64,000 nucleotides of DNA from Novilysobacter antarcticus (GTDB lineage: Bacteria; Pseudomonadota; Gammaproteobacteria; Xanthomonadales; Xanthomonadaceae): NCBI RefSeq assembly GCF_019802285.1, contig NZ_JAIEUJ010000003.1:62001-126000 (forward strand), in the 5' to 3' direction. The notes beneath the pieces were generated by a model, which did not search any database, had not been told where the DNA came from, and saw nothing but the letters and a program-made list of their open reading frames with translations. Below are positions 15,400 through 22,590 of the stretch, piece after piece; the first letter of the stretch is position 1; every line of letters starts with the position of its first letter. The position numbers were made by a program, and so were the translations under genes.

Positions 15400-17562
15400 T
15401 CACTGGCCGGTAGGCAGGCCGAGTTCCTTGAGCACCTGCGGCGCCGGGAACGCCTCCTGCATGACCCAGCGCAGGTAGCGCCCATCGACCGCAATCACGC
15501 GCGTCATGTCCGGGTCGAACACCCAGTTGGAGCTGACGCTTTCCCAGTTCATGTCGAACACCAGCCCGACCAGCTCACCGCGCGCATCCATCGCCGGCGA
15601 GCCCGAGTTGCCGCCGGTGATGTCCAGGTCGGCCATGAAGTTGACCGGTACCGTGCCCAACTCCTGGCTGGCCAGGCCGCCGTAGCGCTTGGCGGCGATG
15701 GCGTCGAGCTGTGCCTTGAGCGCATTGAACGGGTCCACGCCGGTGGATTTGTCGGCTATCTGCTCCAGCGTGGTGAACGCCGCCTGGCGGCTGCCGTCCA
15801 GCTTGGTGTAGCCCTGGACGTTGCCGAAGGTGATGCGCAGCGAGGAGTTCGCATCCGGATAGACCGACTCGCCACGGCTGGCGCGGTAATCGGCGACCGC
15901 CTGCAGATACACCGGGCGGGCCTGCAGCACGTCACCGGTGCGGATTTCTTCGAGCTCCTTGTTCTGCAGCATCGTCGGCATCAGTGCCACGGCCAGTTGC
16001 AGGGCCGGGTCCTTGCTGGCTTCAAGCGTCGCGCGGTCGGCCTGCATCAGCTTCAGGCGCGTATCCAGATCGCCCAGGCTGGTGCCGGCCAGGCGATCCA
16101 GTGCAGCCTGCACGGCGGCCTCGTCGTTGCCGCCCAGCCATTCATCGAGAGCGGGAATGTGCTGGTCCTGAGGCAACTTCACGTATTCGCGCAACCAGTA
16201 TTGCTGCAACTGGCGATCCATGCCGGCGTCGTAACGGCGCTCCATCTGCTTCAGCGAGCCCTCCAAACCGGGCAGGTCACGCGCCTGGTAGCCGGCGTCA
16301 CGCTGCGCGTCCGGCTTCTCAGCCTCCAGCGCAAACCGGTACAGGCTGGTTGCCGCGCCGATGGCACCGGTGCGGACCAGCTGGCCGAAGACCAGGTCGC
16401 GCTCGCGGGTGGCGCGCTCGGCGGCGTCCAGTTCCAGCAGTCGTGCGTGCGCTTCCAAAGCCGGCGCACCCTTGGTGCCCTGCCCGCGCAACCAGGCCAA
16501 TACCGCGGCCTCCTCGGCATGCTTGGTCTTGCTGGCATCTATGCGCTGGAAGCCTTCCAGCTGGCCGCCGTAGTTCTTCATCGTGTTCTGCCAGCCACGG
16601 ATCGTGCTGGCGTACTTGACCTTGATGTCCTCGTCCTTCGCGCCGGCCGCCTCGACCAGATCAACCATCGCCTCGTAATGGCGCTTGACCGTCGGGTAGG
16701 TCCACTGCTCGGTCGCGTCGAACTCCTCGGCCAGGGCGTAGCGCGCGGTCCGACCCGGATAGCCGGCGACCATCACGAAATCACCGATGTTCAGCGGCTG
16801 GCTGGCGAACTTGAGGAAGTGTTTCGGCTGGTAGGGAACGTTTTCGGTGGAGTACGGCGCCGGCTTGCCGTCCTTGCCGACGTAGGCGCGGTAGAACGCG
16901 AAGTCGCCAGTGTGGCGCGGCCACATCCAGTTGTCGATATCGCCACCGAAGCTGCCGATGCTGTTGGGCGGCGCATAGACCAAGCGCACGTCCTTGATCT
17001 CCAGGTTCTTGAACAGACGGTAGGTGTTGCCGCCGGCAAAGCTGTAGAACTGGCAGCGATAGCCGGCGTCGGCTTCGCAGTCGGCGACCAGTTGTTTCTG
17101 GATGGTCTCAAGCGCACGCGTGCGTCCCAGCGCATCGGGCGCGGCATCGATCGCGGCGCGGACGTCCTTGGTCACGTCGCGGATCGAGTCCAGCGCGTAG
17201 ATGCGCGCGTTCGGCCCGGCCGACACTTCGCGCTCCGTGGTTCCGGCATTGAAGCCGTGCTCGATCAGGTTGTTTTCCGGCGTGGAGTTGAGCTGGATCG
17301 CGCCATATGCGCAGTGATGGTTGGTCACCACCAGGCCCTGCGGGGAGACGAAGCTCGCCGTGCAGCCGCCCAGCGAGACCACCGCGCCCATCGGGTCGCC
17401 GGTCAGGTCAGCCAGTTGTTCGGCGGGCAGCTCCAGCCCGGCCTTCTGCAACGCTGCGGAAATCTCCGGCAGCTGCTGCGGCACCCACATGCCCTCGCCG
17501 GCCACCGCCGATCCCATGACGCCCGTCAACGCCATGGCGGCGGTCAATATCGAATAACGCAT
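15400..17562 (-). CDS. S46 dipeptidyl-peptidase, copy A
   Basis: A 720-residue secreted serine exopeptidase of family S46 (DPP7/DPP11/DAP BII), which removes dipeptides from peptide N-termini in the periplasm. A signal peptide (1-22) precedes EGMWVPQQLPE. The triad is visible: His83 in TNHHCAYGAIQ, Asp in WPRHTGDFAFYRAYVG and Ser653 in GNSGSPAMD. The S1 specificity site, 18 residues after the serine, is Met671, whereas DPP7 has Gly and DPP11 has Arg. The ATG at 17562 has an AGGAG site seven bases before it. Third in reading order of three tandem paralogs. Confidence 0.93.
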   Translation of the reverse strand: MRYSILTAAMALTGVMGSAVAGEGMWVPQQLPEISAALQKAGLELPAEQLADLTGDPMGAVVSLGGCTASFVSPQGLVVTNHHCAYGAIQLNSTPENNLIEHGFNAGTTEREVSAGPNARIYALDSIRDVTKDVRAAIDAAPDALGRTRALETIQKQLVADCEADAGYRCQFYSFAGGNTYRLFKNLEIKDVRLVYAPPNSIGSFGGDIDNWMWPRHTGDFAFYRAYVGKDGKPAPYSTENVPYQPKHFLKFASQPLNIGDFVMVAGYPGRTARYALAEEFDATEQWTYPTVKRHYEAMVDLVEAAGAKDEDIKVKYASTIRGWQNTMKNYGGQLEGFQRIDASKTKHAEEAAVLAWLRGQGTKGAPALEAHARLLELDAAERATRERDLVFGQLVRTGAIGAATSLYRFALEAEKPDAQRDAGYQARDLPGLEGSLKQMERRYDAGMDRQLQQYWLREYVKLPQDQHIPALDEWLGGNDEAAVQAALDRLAGTSLGDLDTRLKLMQADRATLEASKDPALQLAVALMPTMLQNKELEEIRTGDVLQARPVYLQAVADYRASRGESVYPDANSSLRITFGNVQGYTKLDGSRQAAFTTLEQIADKSTGVDPFNALKAQLDAIAAKRYGGLASQELGTVPVNFMADLDITGGNSGSPAMDARGELVGLVFDMNWESVSSNWVFDPDMTRVIAVDGRYLRWVMQEAFPAPQVLKELGLPTGQ

Positions 17563-17775
17563 GCACCTACTCCTGCCAAGGATCAATCCGCGATTTTAGC
17601 CTGCCAACCCCGATGGCGGCCCGTAACTTCCGGCACGGGCGCGAATGCGGTGAATGCAGACCAGTCGCCGACGGCACGCGCTGATTTACGGGTTTTTGCC
17701 CGCCTTTGAAGACATAGGGAGGACGGGGAAAATGTTGCTCATTGGCCCGGTTGTGGTGTGATCGACCGGGCGAGC

Positions 17776-17876
17776 GACCTGCATGCCTTCGAGGCGAATG
17801 TCCCCCGGCCACCGCCTCCGGCCACCGCCTCCGGCGGCGGCCTCCTCCTTTACTTCGCCCCGAAGGCATGCAGGTC
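17776..17876. repeat. Palindromic element 1
   Basis: Bounded by a perfect 16-base inverted repeat (17776-17791 with 17861-17876). Its core contains two blocks, 17794-17809 and 17840-17859, that recur inverted in element 2. Between them a 13-base unit (CCGGCCACCGCCT) is repeated twice in tandem. The element looks like a REP/REPIN-type unit. Confidence 0.7.
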
Positions 17877-17925
17877 CCCCCGGTACTGGCGGATTCGCGC
17901 ATCTGCAACCACCGCCATGCTGGAT

Positions 17926-18019
17926 GCCGGGGGTGAACGCCCTTGCGGCGAAGTAAAGGAGGAGGCACCGGCTTCACCGGTGCCGGGGGACATTCGCAGC
18001 AAGGGCGTTCGCCCCCGGC
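17926..18019. repeat. Palindromic element 2, inverted core of element 1
   Basis: Bounded by a 21-base inverted repeat with one mismatch (17926-17946 with 17999-18019). Inside, 17947-17966 is the exact reverse complement of 17840-17859, and 17982-17997 of 17794-17809. The terminal stems differ in sequence from those of element 1 although the core is shared. Confidence 0.7.
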
Positions 18020-18057
18020 CCGCGGCGACACCACGGTGCGGCGCTCTTCTCCAAGCC

Positions 18058-20238
18058 CTACTCCAGCGGCAGGCTCATTTCCCGCAACAGGTTCGGTGCC
18101 GGGTACACCTTGCCCATCAGCCAGCGCAGGTAACGCACGTCAACGTGGATGGCCCGCTTGTAGCGCGGGTCGTACATCCAGCTGGCGCTGACCGCTTCCC
18201 AGTTGCTGTCGAAGTTCAGCCCGATCAGCTTTCCGCTGGCGTCCAGCACCGGGGATCCGGAGTTGCCGCCGGTCGTGTCCAGGTTGGTCATCAGGTTGAC
18301 GGTCTGGGTGCCCAGCACGGGATCGATGGTGCTGCCGAAGTCGCCCTTGGCGATCGCGTCGCGCAGGGTCTTGGGGGCGTCGAAAGGATCCTCGCCGGTG
18401 TGCTTTTCGACGATTCCCTGCACCGTGGTGAGCGGGGTGTAGTGGACGCCGTCGCGCGGGTCCAGCGAGCTGACCTTGCCGTAGCTCACCCGCAGGGTCG
18501 AGTTGGCGTCGGGGTACACCGCCTGCCCTTGCGACTCACGGAAGCCGATCAGCGCGCGCATGTAGGCCGGCCGCAAACGCAGCAGTTCGCCGTCGCTGGC
18601 CTTATCCGCATCAGCGATTCGCAACTGGGCCGGCAGCAACTTCGCAGCGGCCTGCATCAACGGATCGGTGGACGCGCCGATCTCCGCGGGATCGGCGGCG
18701 AGCAGGCGCAGGCGCTCCGCCTCCTGATCGAGTCGGGTGCCGCTGTAGAGCGTGTCCAGCGCGGACACCGCTTGGGCCTTGTCGGTGCCGAACACGGCGT
18801 CCAGCTCGGCGATGCGCTGGTCGGCAGGCAGTGCGCGGTAGCGGGTCAGCAGCTCTGCCAACAGGGCTTTTTCCACCTGCGGGGCGTAACGGCGCTGGAC
18901 CTGCTTCAGCGAGGCCTCGATCTGCGCCTCGTCGCGGAGCTGGTAACCGGTTTCGCGCTCCGCGTCGGGCTTGGCACGCTCGACCGCCAGCCGCTGCAGC
19001 TGCATGGCGCTTTTGAGCAGCTGGGTCTGGGTGCGCATCAGCCCGAACAACTGGTCGCGCTCGCGCGTCGCCTGCGACTGCGCGATGACCGCGGCCGCCG
19101 CATCGATGTCGCGGCGGGCGGCGGCCGCATCGGGCTGCTTGTCGAGCCAGGTCAGCATCGCGGCCTCGTCGCGCTTGCGTACGCCGACCGCATCACTGCG
19201 GCGAAGGCCGTCCAACTCGCCCTGCGCCCGCTTGAGGTTGTTCTTCATGCTGGCAACCTGAGAGGCGTACAGCACGCCGGCATCCGCGTCGTTGGCGGCG
19301 GCACCCTCGATGGTGTCGATCATCGCGGCATACAGGTCCACGCGCTCGGGCAGCTGGGTGCCCACCTGGTCGGCGAACTCGGCCGCGGTACGATGGCGGA
19401 ACGTGCGGCCCGGATACCCAGCCAGCATCGCGAAATCGCCCTCGGCGACCGGGTCGGTCGACACCTCCAGGAATGCCTTCGGTTGATACGGCACGTTGTC
19501 CGGCGAGAACGCCGCCGGCTTGCCGTCGCGACCGACATAGGCGCGGTAGAACGCGAAGTCACCGCTGTGCCGCGGCCACATGAAGTTGTCGATCTCGCCG
19601 CCGTACTTGCCGATCGATTCCGGCGGCGCATAGACCAGCCGGATATCCTTCAGCTCCAGCTGCTTGACCAGGTAGAAATCGGTGCCGTAATACATGTTGG
19701 CAACGCTGCAGCGGTAACCGGCGTCCTGTTCGCACTCGGCCACCAGCGCCTTGCTCGCCGAATCAACCGCGTCGTAGTAATCGCGACCGGTCTTTCCGCG
19801 AGCCTCCGCGAGCACGCGGTCGGTGACCCGGTCGAAGTCGGTGGTCACAAACACGCGGGCGGCCGGTCCGGCCGAGACTTCATCCTTGAGCGAGGCGGCA
19901 TTGAAGCCGTCCGCCATCAGGTTGTTCTGCGGCGTCGAGTTGAGCTGGATCGCCCCATAGGCGCAGTGGTGGTTGGTCACCACCAGACCCTGTGGGGACA
20001 CGAAGCTGGCGGTACATCCGCCCAGCGACACCACCGCGCTCATCGGCGGGCGGGTCAGGTCGGCCAGCGCGGCGGGATCACCTTTGTAGCCGGCCGCAGC
20101 CAACTGGTCGGCGATCTGCGGCAGTTGCGACGGCATCCACATGCCTTCATCGGCGTGGGCGCCAAACGCGAGGCCGGCGGCGGTCGCCAGCAATGCTCCA
20201 CGCACGGCGGTCTTCAAGGTTGTGCTGGTGTCAGTCAT
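18058..20238 (-). CDS. S46 dipeptidyl-peptidase, copy B
   Basis: A 726-residue S46 serine exopeptidase, paralog of its two neighbours. The signal peptide (1-29, AHA end) precedes DEGMWMPSQLPQ. Catalytic His lies in TNHHCAYGAIQ, Asp in WPRHSGDFAFYRAYVG and Ser660 in GNSGSPVLD. The S1 specificity position (+18) is Ser678, neither the Gly of DPP7 nor the Arg of DPP11, so its dipeptide preference may differ. Its ATG overlaps the end of copy C by eight bases (20231-20238), so the two are translationally coupled. Confidence 0.93.
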   Translation of the reverse strand: MTDTSTTLKTAVRGALLATAAGLAFGAHADEGMWMPSQLPQIADQLAAAGYKGDPAALADLTRPPMSAVVSLGGCTASFVSPQGLVVTNHHCAYGAIQLNSTPQNNLMADGFNAASLKDEVSAGPAARVFVTTDFDRVTDRVLAEARGKTGRDYYDAVDSASKALVAECEQDAGYRCSVANMYYGTDFYLVKQLELKDIRLVYAPPESIGKYGGEIDNFMWPRHSGDFAFYRAYVGRDGKPAAFSPDNVPYQPKAFLEVSTDPVAEGDFAMLAGYPGRTFRHRTAAEFADQVGTQLPERVDLYAAMIDTIEGAAANDADAGVLYASQVASMKNNLKRAQGELDGLRRSDAVGVRKRDEAAMLTWLDKQPDAAAARRDIDAAAAVIAQSQATRERDQLFGLMRTQTQLLKSAMQLQRLAVERAKPDAERETGYQLRDEAQIEASLKQVQRRYAPQVEKALLAELLTRYRALPADQRIAELDAVFGTDKAQAVSALDTLYSGTRLDQEAERLRLLAADPAEIGASTDPLMQAAAKLLPAQLRIADADKASDGELLRLRPAYMRALIGFRESQGQAVYPDANSTLRVSYGKVSSLDPRDGVHYTPLTTVQGIVEKHTGEDPFDAPKTLRDAIAKGDFGSTIDPVLGTQTVNLMTNLDTTGGNSGSPVLDASGKLIGLNFDSNWEAVSASWMYDPRYKRAIHVDVRYLRWLMGKVYPAPNLLREMSLPLE

Positions 20239-22408
20239 GCGGCAGTCCCATCTCCTCCAGGAGGTGTTCAGCGTGGTCGACCTCGTCCATCACCCAGCGC
20301 ATATAGCGGGCATCGACGTGGATCGAGCGGGTCAGTTCGGGGTTGAAGATCCAGCCGGCGCTGAGGCTTTCGTAGTTGCCGTCAAACAACAGGCCAACCA
20401 GCTCGCCTTTGGAATTCAGCGTGGGCGATCCGGAGTTGCCGCCGGTGGTATCCACGTCGCTGAGGAAGTTCACCGGCACATCGCCCAGCGAGTCCATCCG
20501 GTACTGCGCGCCCTTGCCGGCGGCAATCGCATCCAGTTCCGCCTGCGGGGTGACAAAAGGCTCCTTGCCGGTGGTCTTGGCGACGATGCCGGCCAGAGTG
20601 GTGAACGGTGTCATCTGCACGCCGTCGCGCGGCGAGTAACCCTTCACGGTGCCGAAGGTGATGCGCAGCGAGCTGTTGGCGTCCGGATAGACCGGCTTGC
20701 CCTGGGACTGGTTGAAATCGATCATCGCCTGCATGTACTGCGGCCGCAGTGCCGAGATCCGGCCGGAGCGTGCCTCGCCATCGGCTTCGATCTGCAACAC
20801 GGTCGGCATCATCGCGACCGCCAACTGCAGGGCGGCATCATCGGAGGCCTCGATATCGGCCTTGTCCGCCTTCAGCAGCGCAAGACGGGTGTCCACGTCG
20901 CCGAGCCTGGAGCCGGCGTACAGGGCGTCGAGCTTCGCATCCAGTCCAGGGATGGTCGTGTCGGTGGCGCCGATACCCAGCCAGCGGTCGAGGGCGGCGA
21001 TGCGCTGCGCCGCCGGCACCTGGCTGGCGTAACGCTGCAGGCGCAGCGACATCAGTGCCTGGTCCACCTTGGCGTCGTAGCGCTTGTCGAACGCCGTCAT
21101 CGAGCCGGCGATGCGCGGCGCATCACGATCCTGATAGCCCGGCTTGCGCTCCGCGTCCGGCTTGGCCTGTTCGATCGCGTTGCGATACAGGTTCACCGCC
21201 ACGCCGGGCAGTCCGCCGCCCAGCGTGTTGTTGAACCACAGGTCACGCTCACGGGTTGCGCGATCCTCGGCCAGCTCCTTCTCCAGTGCGCGGATGGCGT
21301 TCAGCTGCGCCCGGCCCTCGCTGCCGCGCTTGCCCAACCACGCTTCCAGCGCGTCCTCGCGCGCCTGTTTGACCCCCACCGGATCGGCCATCTGGGCGAA
21401 ACCGTCCAGGTTGCCCTGATAAAGCTTCAGCACGTTGTTGAGGCTGGCCACGGTGGAGGCGTACTTGAGCGCTGCGGCCTTGTCGCCGGCGGTCGTTCGA
21501 TCAATCGTGGCCAGGTAGTCACCGAAGTACCCCACCATCGTCGGATAGCGCCACTCGATCGCTTCCTTGACCTCGCCTGGCAGGCGGTAGCGATCGGTGG
21601 AACCGGGATAGCCGGTCACCATGACGTAGTCACCCTCCTCCAGCGGCTGCTGGGCCACCGTCAACCAGCTGGCCGGCTTGTAGGGCACATTGTCGGGGGA
21701 GTACGCCGCCGGCTTGCCGTCCTTGCCGACGTAGGCGCGCAGGAACCCCCAGTCGCCGGTGTGCCGCGGCCACTCGAAGTTGTCCTCGTCACCGCCGAAC
21801 TTGCCGATCGAGTCGGGCGGGGCGTACACGAGGCGCACGTCGCGGATCTCCAGCTGGCGGATCAGTGAGAACTGCAGCCCGCCGTGGAAGTTGTAGACAT
21901 TGCAGCGCAGACCGCCGGGCTGCTCGCACTCGGCCACGAGCGCCTTGCTGCGCGACTCAATGGTGTCGTAGCGGGCCTTGCCATCCAGACCGTCCAGACC
22001 GTCGGTGATCCGGGCGGTGACGTCTGCGATCTCCTGGGTGACGTAGATGCGTGCATTGGGCTCGGCGGGCAGCTCCTCGGCGAGGGTCTTGGCGACAAAC
22101 CCATCGCTGAGCAGGTCGCGCTCGGGCGTGGAGTTGTACTGGACCGCGCCGTAAACGCAGTGATGGTTGCTCACCACCAGACCCGTAGGGGACACGAAAC
22201 TTGCCGTGCAGCCGCCCAGGCTGATGACCGCGTCCAGCGGTTTGCCGGCCAGGTTGGACAACGCCGCCGGGTCCATCTCCAGGCCGCGCGCCTTGAGCTG
22301 GGCGGCCAGCTCGGGCATCTGGCTGGGTTGCCACATGCCTTCATCGGCGTGGGCGACGGTGGATGCGAGCGCGACGGTCAGGGCCGCCGAGAGGATTCGA
22401 AAGTTCAC
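20231..22408 (-). CDS. S46 dipeptidyl-peptidase, copy C (DPP7-like)
   Basis: A 725-residue S46 exopeptidase. I choose the GTG at 22408 as start, since it gives a compact signal peptide (NFRILSAALTVALASTVAHA) before DEGMWQPSQMPE and has a GGGG run nearby; an ATG further upstream would add a poorly hydrophobic 25-residue extension. The triad is His in SNHHCVYGAVQ, Asp in WPRHTGDWGFLRAYVG and Ser659 in GNSGSPTLN. Position +18 is Gly677, as in DPP7 and DAP BII, predicting a preference for bulky hydrophobic residues at P1. First gene of the cluster, divergent from tdh. Confidence 0.9.
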   Translation of the reverse strand: MNFRILSAALTVALASTVAHADEGMWQPSQMPELAAQLKARGLEMDPAALSNLAGKPLDAVISLGGCTASFVSPTGLVVSNHHCVYGAVQYNSTPERDLLSDGFVAKTLAEELPAEPNARIYVTQEIADVTARITDGLDGLDGKARYDTIESRSKALVAECEQPGGLRCNVYNFHGGLQFSLIRQLEIRDVRLVYAPPDSIGKFGGDEDNFEWPRHTGDWGFLRAYVGKDGKPAAYSPDNVPYKPASWLTVAQQPLEEGDYVMVTGYPGSTDRYRLPGEVKEAIEWRYPTMVGYFGDYLATIDRTTAGDKAAALKYASTVASLNNVLKLYQGNLDGFAQMADPVGVKQAREDALEAWLGKRGSEGRAQLNAIRALEKELAEDRATRERDLWFNNTLGGGLPGVAVNLYRNAIEQAKPDAERKPGYQDRDAPRIAGSMTAFDKRYDAKVDQALMSLRLQRYASQVPAAQRIAALDRWLGIGATDTTIPGLDAKLDALYAGSRLGDVDTRLALLKADKADIEASDDAALQLAVAMMPTVLQIEADGEARSGRISALRPQYMQAMIDFNQSQGKPVYPDANSSLRITFGTVKGYSPRDGVQMTPFTTLAGIVAKTTGKEPFVTPQAELDAIAAGKGAQYRMDSLGDVPVNFLSDVDTTGGNSGSPTLNSKGELVGLLFDGNYESLSAGWIFNPELTRSIHVDARYMRWVMDEVDHAEHLLEEMGLPHD

Positions 22409-22590
22409 GGTTGCCCCGGTAGGTGATGTGCAACCTTCGACGATAAGCAATGCCACCGAGCATCCGCAACCGCCAACGGTCATGCCTGCGAGCCGGTTGC
22501 CACGCCCGGCATATGCAGAGTCCGTCATCGGGACCGAAGGTGTGGCCGGTACAATTGGCCCCCAACCACGCCGTTTTCGCCAGGCCATCC

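Follow-up and report, generated by a model that had tools for sequence, protein, structure and literature searches.

A dispersed family of paired inverted hairpins with a near-invariant internal loop, very probably under selection on a single-stranded fold

The two-hairpin unit and its surroundings

The window, that is, the whole 64-kb stretch of Novilysobacter antarcticus DNA that was analyzed, carries three tandem S46 peptidase genes on the minus strand at 15400-22588 (728, 726, and 785 aa), and the unit described here occupies the intergenic region separating the first from the second. At 17776-18019, it consists of two hairpins of ~95 nt in opposite orientation, placed head-to-head in the order [- +]. 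Two palindromic elements of this kind had been put forward in the original prediction, and their presence is confirmed by the inverted arms, the fold, and a covariance model. The features are as follows.

15400..17586, minus strand: S46 peptidase gene, downstream neighbor of the unit (Pfam PF10459, 756 bits)
17772..18020, no strand: complete unit, two ~95-nt hairpins and a 44-nt spacer (sequence and covariance model; 14 genomic places)
17772..17880, minus strand: left hairpin, GACCTGCATGCC-type outer-stem class (R1 model 67.5 bits, E 8.7e-16; DNA fold z -8.4)
17776..17798, minus strand: left hairpin, outer-stem arm, 3' on the minus strand, partner 17854-17876 (inverted pair, 96% complementary)
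17799..17806, minus strand: left hairpin, conserved 3' loop side, GGGGGACA on the minus strand (sequence; invariant alignment columns)
17802..17827, plus strand: 13-bp tandem duplication lengthening the inner stem of the left hairpin (repeat search; copies of relatives)
17842..17854, minus strand: left hairpin, conserved 5' loop side, AGTAAAGGAGGAG on the minus strand (sequence; near-invariant alignment columns)
17854..17876, minus strand: left hairpin, outer-stem arm, 5' on the minus strand, partner 17776-17798 (inverted pair)
17881..17924, no strand: inter-hairpin spacer, fast evolving among orthologs (model bounds; 24.8% changed over ten places)
17925..18020, plus strand: right hairpin, GGGGGTGAACGCCC-type outer-stem class (R1 model 91.8 bits, E 2.4e-22; DNA fold z -9.1)
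17926..17951, plus strand: right hairpin, 5' outer-stem arm (inverted pair)
17952..17963, plus strand: right hairpin, conserved 5' loop side, AGTAAAGGAGGA (sequence; alignment columns)
17964..17984, plus strand: right hairpin, variable inner hairpin (sequence; DNA fold)
17985..17992, plus strand: right hairpin, conserved 3' loop side, GGGGGACA (sequence; alignment columns)
17993..18019, plus strand: right hairpin, 3' outer-stem arm (inverted pair)
18058..20238, minus strand: S46 peptidase gene, the unit lying 38 bp past its stop codon (Pfam PF10459, 770 bits)

The outer arms measure 23 nt in the left element and 27 nt, with 93% complementarity between 17926-17952 and 17993-18019, in the right one. 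The two exact blocks predicted to be shared, GGCGAAGTAAAGGAGGAGGC (20 nt) and GCCGGGGGACATTCGC (16 nt), are read in opposite orientation in the two elements and turn out to be the two sides of a conserved core, GGCGAAGTAAAGGAGGAGGC lying inside the inverted pair 17840-17872/17934-17966. Folded as single-stranded DNA, both hairpins are better than all 200 dinucleotide shuffles, and a scan of the 64-kb window with R1, a covariance model of relatives built on 47 sequences, one of which is the right hairpin itself, returned exactly two matches, the left and right hairpins. The sister-species copy at G006:C1:612944 has a normal inner stem without the 13-bp duplication, and the inner stems of the other compared copies are shorter than that of the left hairpin in the window. 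No sigma-70-like promoter was found in 17587-18060, an absence of little weight since the expected number is also 0.0.

Fold, covariation, and orientation across the family

Family members follow one plan, in which a variable, covarying outer stem of at least 20 pairs leads to an asymmetric internal loop, ATAAAGGAGGA / GGGGGACA, and then to a variable inner hairpin. The loop hardly varies between Lysobacteraceae and Burkholderiales, and the inner hairpin is fixed in neither sequence nor length. Across an alignment of 47 diverse hairpins, the sequence of the outer stem is not constant, two-sided changes occurring at 24 of its 26 pairs (27 of 30 pairs overall), and paired cells amount to 90.0%, vs 61.8% when shuffled and 38.5-43.5% when slid out of register. 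The selection on structure suggested at the outset is thus supported both by matched stem changes and by pairing above the shuffled and slid controls. The predicted "mosaic", in which each element has its own terminal stem, corresponds to two hairpin classes that differ in their outer stems and are usually paired together in the lineages examined.

The alignment took 47 of 68 thinned hairpins, 21 having been dropped by choice, including the long-insert minus hairpin of L001. Next to the loop, GCGAA/TTCGC is nearly fixed, an invariance that is somewhat overstated because the GACATGAGC variants were also left out of the 47. There are matched exceptions, GCAAA/TTTGC in Stenotrophomonas and GGCAT/ACAGCC in genome G232, together with an unmatched variant that ends in ACATGAGC or ACATGGAGC; near-core variants occur in L016, L123, L135, L159, L270, L271, and G232. 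The ACATGAGC/ACATGGAGC variant (L016, L135, L159, L270, and L271) could form tandem G-A pairs by the loop, replacing GAA/TTC. A two-layer G-quadruplex in the loop was also considered and was not chosen by ViennaRNA with G-quadruplexes switched on in the three hairpins folded. A separate alignment within the window's genome (G000) comprised 23 of its 26 hairpins, omitting the minus hairpin of L001, which has an insertion, and two truncated hairpins, L007 plus and L008 minus.

The paired arrangement is as regular as the fold. Of 66 two-hairpin clusters in the named loci L080-L197, 62 are ordered [- +], two [- -], one [+ +], and one [+ -], as retrieved for 98 of 118 loci, with some hairpins listed on both strands since a single hairpin can match on both. 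The remaining clusters comprise 31 singles and one triple, the count excluding a further 18 that lie close to an edge. The order [- +] holds in 39 of 39 two-hairpin clusters of G000 and of G001 and G006, the sister-species genomes used for comparison. Loop-to-loop distances are mostly 96-134 bp, with extremes of 78 and 262. Lone hairpins are found in G083 and G086 (no second within ~800 bp) and at three places in G232 (none within ~3 kb). Short tandem repeats of the AACAACAGCGCC type stand directly outside the right end of the unit in Variovorax loci such as L110, L121, and L142.

Dispersal across genomes

In G000 (2.78 Mb), searches with the 244-bp unit and its core locate 14 places, so that the refuting outcome named beforehand, blocks occurring nowhere else, did not arise, and the elements in the window are far beyond chance. 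All 23 exact copies of AAAGGAGGAGRC in this genome fall within the 14 places; the motif forms a [- +] pair with at most one mismatch at 12 of them, and both hairpins are whole at 10. By covariance model, the family is present in five of the nine other genomes of the genus. Exact core matches were obtained in six of 60 genomes including G000, namely, five of the 10 from the genus plus G018, which belongs to a different genus. With R1, 11 of 119 genomes match, G000 included and six of the 10 of the genus among them, and in 369 genomes drawn evenly over the class, four match, again including G000, these scans having scored at most 35 and at most 11 matches per genome, respectively.

A scan of genome contigs for the exact core pattern yielded at least 118 stretches, three of which (L094, L095, and L191) were dropped as chance. 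The family is spread across many bacteria of soil and water. Among the named bearers are Variovorax, Ramlibacter, Hydrogenophaga, Rhodoferax, Pseudorhodoferax, Stenotrophomonas, and Luteimonas, many of them Burkholderiales. The eight genomes behind named records hold 4 to 112 model matches each at E <= 0.01, the maximum of 112 being in one Variovorax paradoxus genome, where some matches may come from the opposite strand of a hairpin already counted. The exact core pattern was found in no viral contig, and the phage records contain nothing similar to the window unit; in PLSDB, a Variovorax unit matched only four Variovorax replicons of 1.2-2.5 Mb. No description of the hairpin was found among titles and abstract openings, and one may yet be in print. 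Records titled Bacillus subtilis SK7B5 (L091, L099, L107, L126, L130, L134, L168, and L189) contain Stenotrophomonas-type units at 67-69% G+C, and this assembly is probably mislabeled.

Conservation in place

Counterparts of the 14 places in G000 are present at 14 of 14 in G006 and at 12 of 14 in G001, and copies at sites shared by the sister species are mostly intact. Over 20 comparisons of G000 with G001 and G006 at 10 of the 14 places (L007, L008, L010, and L013, with one whole hairpin, being excluded), loops changed at 18 of 699 sites (2.6%) vs 249 of 1003 (24.8%) in the spacer, although the loci of G001 and G006 were fetched by exact core, which favors conserved loops in these counts. In the same comparisons, changes affected 9 of 370 near-stem, 71 of 819 inner, 246 of 1696 outer-stem, and 1177 of 9296 flanking sites, the flanks being partly coding. 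Between G001 and G006, 1 of 460 loop sites differs and 100 of 590 spacer sites.

Within the outer stems, both sides of a pair changed more often than expected. Between G000 and G001, there are 15 such changes (13 still paired) vs 3.4 expected, with 42 of 50 changed pairs standard in 12 hairpins; between G000 and G006, 15 (12 still paired) vs 3.2, with 36 of 46 in 11 hairpins; and between G001 and G006, seven (five still paired) vs 1.5, with 34 of 47 in 18 hairpins. It should be noted that the three comparisons share genomes and are not independent, that they skipped 8, 7, and 8 hairpins, respectively, owing to indels or the lack of a one-to-one match, and that they use ungapped arms, in which unnoticed indels could add false double changes. 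Loss occurs as well, in the form of truncated hairpins in G000 and the partial deletion of one hairpin in G008. Given that the loop is near-invariant and the stems change in matched pairs, something still reads the folded shape, and from the conservation we infer that the retained copies also serve the host.

Strand polarity of stem mismatches

Outer-stem mismatches are strongly polarized. On the AAAGGAGG strand of 247 distinct hairpins, G·T occurs 418 times and A·C 41 times, a ratio of ~10:1, in arms aligned with an equal penalty for every mismatch. The other mismatches number 431, similar to G·T, and 297 of them are A·G or G·A, partly from one motif shared in Burkholderiales. Thinned sets from three lineages give G·T:A·C ratios of 68:5 (41 hairpins), 127:12 (59), and 10:0 (13); the inner stems, whose sequence was crudely halved, are without the bias (29 vs 24). 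A duplex or cruciform would give G·T and A·C equally, so the excess implies that one strand of fixed polarity is read. The bias fits RNA or strand-specific single-stranded DNA; strand-specific deamination could contribute, and this also needs one strand to be exposed. The family very probably represents paired hairpins under selection on a single-stranded fold.

Genomic placement and the case for a structured RNA

Among 132 clusters, 51 lie between tandem genes, 39 between convergent genes, and six between divergent genes, with 15 inside a called ORF, 20 near an edge, and one unclear, gene calls here and in the terminator counts below being made by a simple GC3 rule. This placement downstream of genes, along with wobble pairs that far outnumber A·C on the AAAGGAGG strand, would suit a structured RNA, in which transcription from either side would run through the unit and the sense hairpin would act as a 3'-end stabilizer, a processing site, or a decoy; the [- +] order would then supply one distal sense hairpin for transcription from either direction. 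The target of a decoy would be a protein or the ribosome, since AAAGGAGG is a strong Shine-Dalgarno sequence. However, an intrinsic terminator separates the stop codon from the unit on 24 of 117 gene 3' sides, vs 6 in the reversed control, and terminators stand on both sides of the unit in four loci (L089, L097, L120, and L123). Single hairpins between tandem genes are, moreover, sense in four of 10 cases and antisense in six, and together with the terminators this weakens a role in the mRNAs of neighboring genes. No Rfam family is matched at gathering score in the window, the 13 weak matches being all far below the cut-offs. A structured RNA is considered unlikely, albeit the strongest of the alternatives.

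Evidence on multiplication and movement comes from several lineages. In Ramlibacter WS9, four right hairpins differ by at most one base and their spacers have diverged; one locus carries 2, 2, 4, and 3 hairpins in four Stenotrophomonas-type genomes (three named ones and G398); and in Variovorax, many units share TTCAGGG ... CCCTGAA-like ends outside the stems. By eye, the flanks of 33 units displayed neither a target duplication nor a clean empty site. At the L006 place, the flank orthologs are non-adjacent in the four non-bearers G002, G004, G005, and G009; two sites occupied in G001 only are not clean, since gene content in G006 differs widely there; and for L238, the counterpart in G001 is not within the 38 kb examined. 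At L257 and L316:5600-14850, the position of a hairpin unit in G001 is taken in G006 by ~9 kb of large surface-type genes, a segment with Dps-like and RecQ-like helicase genes on its two sides, as named by reading translations. As all 14 places are common to sister species, recent movement within the genus of the window is not shown.

Search for a partner gene and the remaining alternatives

The layout, placement, and paired orientation of the units recall REP dimers as presented in PMC3733652, which invites the explanation that they are true REP/REPIN or TIRYT repeats, mobilized by a Y1 (RAYT/TIRYT) transposase that has been lost in some hosts. A Y1_Tnp domain (PF01797) is indeed encoded in 20 of 29 bearing genomes, GGGGACAT resembles GGGGWSAS (7/8), and one Stenotrophomonas stem class starts with GTAG. 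In contrast, the domain is absent from the other nine (G000, G001, G003, G008, G083, G086, G091, G498, and G499), although draft genomes may hide Y1_Tnp or other genes. The search for a RAYT gene proposed in the original prediction thus came out negative in the window's own genome. Neither did proximity point to a link. Model scans covered 76 Y1_Tnp loci, 47 from bearing genomes (L225, L320-L333, and L342-L373), which are all the Y1_Tnp matches there, 35 of them in Stenotrophomonas-type genomes, and 29 from family-free genomes, which say little. In the 47, from the 20 bearing genomes with the gene, no family hairpin lies closer than about 1.5 kb, a single 41-nt match of 18.9 bits at L344 being judged chance. 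The pattern GGAGG...GGGGWSA, sought in 44 Y1_Tnp loci, gave four matches in three loci, none of them like the family hairpin. Within the genus, there is no association either, four of six bearers being without the gene and three of four non-bearers having it. Repeats of a Y1 transposase are on this record a quite improbable explanation.

Five Variovorax genomes (L320-L324) each contain exactly one Y1_Tnp, a single-copy RAYT-like gene with no family hairpin within 1.5 kb, and this one-per-genome occurrence counts on the side of the Y1 transposase. Retro-mobilization is without support, given that a reverse transcriptase (PF00078) was matched (E <= 0.001) in only three of 18 genomes, two of 14 bearers (G119 above the cut-off and G083 under it) and one of four non-bearers (G002). 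The clustering of 899 ORFs from element loci revealed no partner gene beside the copies, the largest clusters being common families; eight neighbor-cluster representatives were named by Pfam, as ABC transporter, AMP-binding, LysR, sensor kinase, aldehyde dehydrogenase, TctC, enoyl-CoA hydratase, and CoA-transferase. A nine-member cluster of 118 aa corresponds, in L110, the one case compared, to an ORF running across the hairpin.

Long, near-perfect arms are a substrate of template switching. It is conceivable that template switching at quasi-palindromes during replication keeps the arms complementary and produces paired changes without selection on the stems, the cores being remnants; the slow change of the loops relative to the spacer and the 10:1 polarity would be left unexplained, and this account is accordingly very unlikely. 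A site bound as double-stranded DNA by gyrase, IHF, or a nucleoid-type protein, cruciform extrusion being incidental, would agree with the intergenic 3' placement and with the proteins that PMC3686654 reports on REP/BIME. Such a site predicts no polarity in the mismatches, however, and the outer stems, most of the site, are observed to be free in sequence; this explanation is the least credible of all.

A proposed reader of the single-stranded fold

Belief and doubt are about balanced for the reading preferred here, that of a REPIN-like element structured as a single strand, with a trans-acting reader of single-stranded DNA that mobilizes the unit. The trans-acting protein, whose existence we infer, would most likely be a single-strand nuclease or a transposase-like enzyme that recognizes the internal loop when the AAAGGAGG strand is single-stranded, for instance at replication. 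With its hairpins inverted, the unit would offer one correctly oriented hairpin on each DNA strand. A nuclease-processed site, as suggested at the outset, is a possibility. The machinery may occasionally multiply or move the unit, and promoter-distant copies would be retained. A neighboring formulation, of somewhat lower probability and short of an even chance, is that the paired hairpins are distinct from REPs and have their own recognition loop (ATAAAGGAGGA / GGGGGACA) and a trans-acting partner common to Burkholderiales and Lysobacteraceae, selection on the fold holding old copies in place for a role in host chromosome or RNA processing.

The family makes single-stranded polarity and selection in place measurable from sequence, and a hairpin of ~95 nt with a known loop is a ready probe for a protein that binds single-stranded DNA or RNA. 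It also raises the question of what holds repeats at fixed places after movement stops.

Comparison with known systems

REPs are short palindromes of 20-40 bp (PMC3733652), and IHF, gyrase, and DNA polymerase I are the proteins reported to bind REP/BIME (PMC3686654). The family is like REPINs and head-to-head REP dimers in having two closely spaced inverted palindromes at intergenic positions between convergent or tandem genes (PMC3733652), and like REPINs in numbering as many as a hundred or so model matches in one genome, in occurring as singles and clusters, and in its lineage-specific stems and frequent wobble pairs. Inverted pairing and extragenic placement downstream of genes are therefore common ground, whereas palindrome size and a RAYT gene flanked by repeats are not: the hairpins here are of ~95 nt, with an outer stem of 20+ bp and a nearly invariant asymmetric loop, no RAYT lies beside the tested copies, and one loop sequence extends from Burkholderiales to Lysobacteraceae. 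The unpaired GTAG/CGTC tag of REPs is not found beside the outer stems in the listed Novilysobacter and Variovorax flanks, the latter sharing GCGCCCTGAAC there. GGAG is located inside the loop, 5' of the inner hairpin, and in the Stenotrophomonas class that starts with GTAG (L091, L130, and L189), this end of the outer stem is paired with CTAC. The idea of a REPIN-type mobile unit, as first proposed, consequently stands with respect to layout, dispersal, and placement and falls short with respect to RAYT, which is missing from the genome of the window and stands beside no hairpin in 47 cases.

Among known kinds, the repeats associated with TIRYT transposases come nearest as an alternative; they have the motif GGGGWSAS and are self-complementary, with short spacing, in S. 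maltophilia (Di Nocera et al. 2013, PMC3733652). Like these TIR families, the present family is moderately abundant, partly self-complementary, and dimeric, and it also occurs in Stenotrophomonas; its GGGGACAT matches the motif at seven of eight positions, the G232 variant GGGGACAG at all eight. Unlike TIRYT TIRs, the hairpins flank no Y1_Tnp in the 47 loci, and nine of the 29 bearing genomes are without the gene. The Stenotrophomonas part of the family may nevertheless be the TIR family of ORF 1152 in S. maltophilia K279a, the comparison having covered motif and gene adjacency.

Bacterial MITEs of the ERIC or NEMIS type are likewise non-coding, mobile-looking units with inverted ends, and the size of ~240 bp is comparable; unlike them, the family has ends that differ between lineages instead of a constant terminal inverted repeat, shows no target duplication in the 33 units viewed, and has a hairpin at each end. 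The ends of IS200/IS605 elements are strand-specific hairpins with unpaired recognition bases, and hairpins of this kind would explain the polarity of the family. Here, in contrast, no transposase gene lies between or beside the hairpins, and these are inverted rather than on the same strand. REPs and REPINs are taken as tied to RAYT; the family has the same layout and placement, a larger and different fold, and no RAYT link found, and it is best read as REPIN-like in its working and, where tested, not as a member of REP/REPIN.
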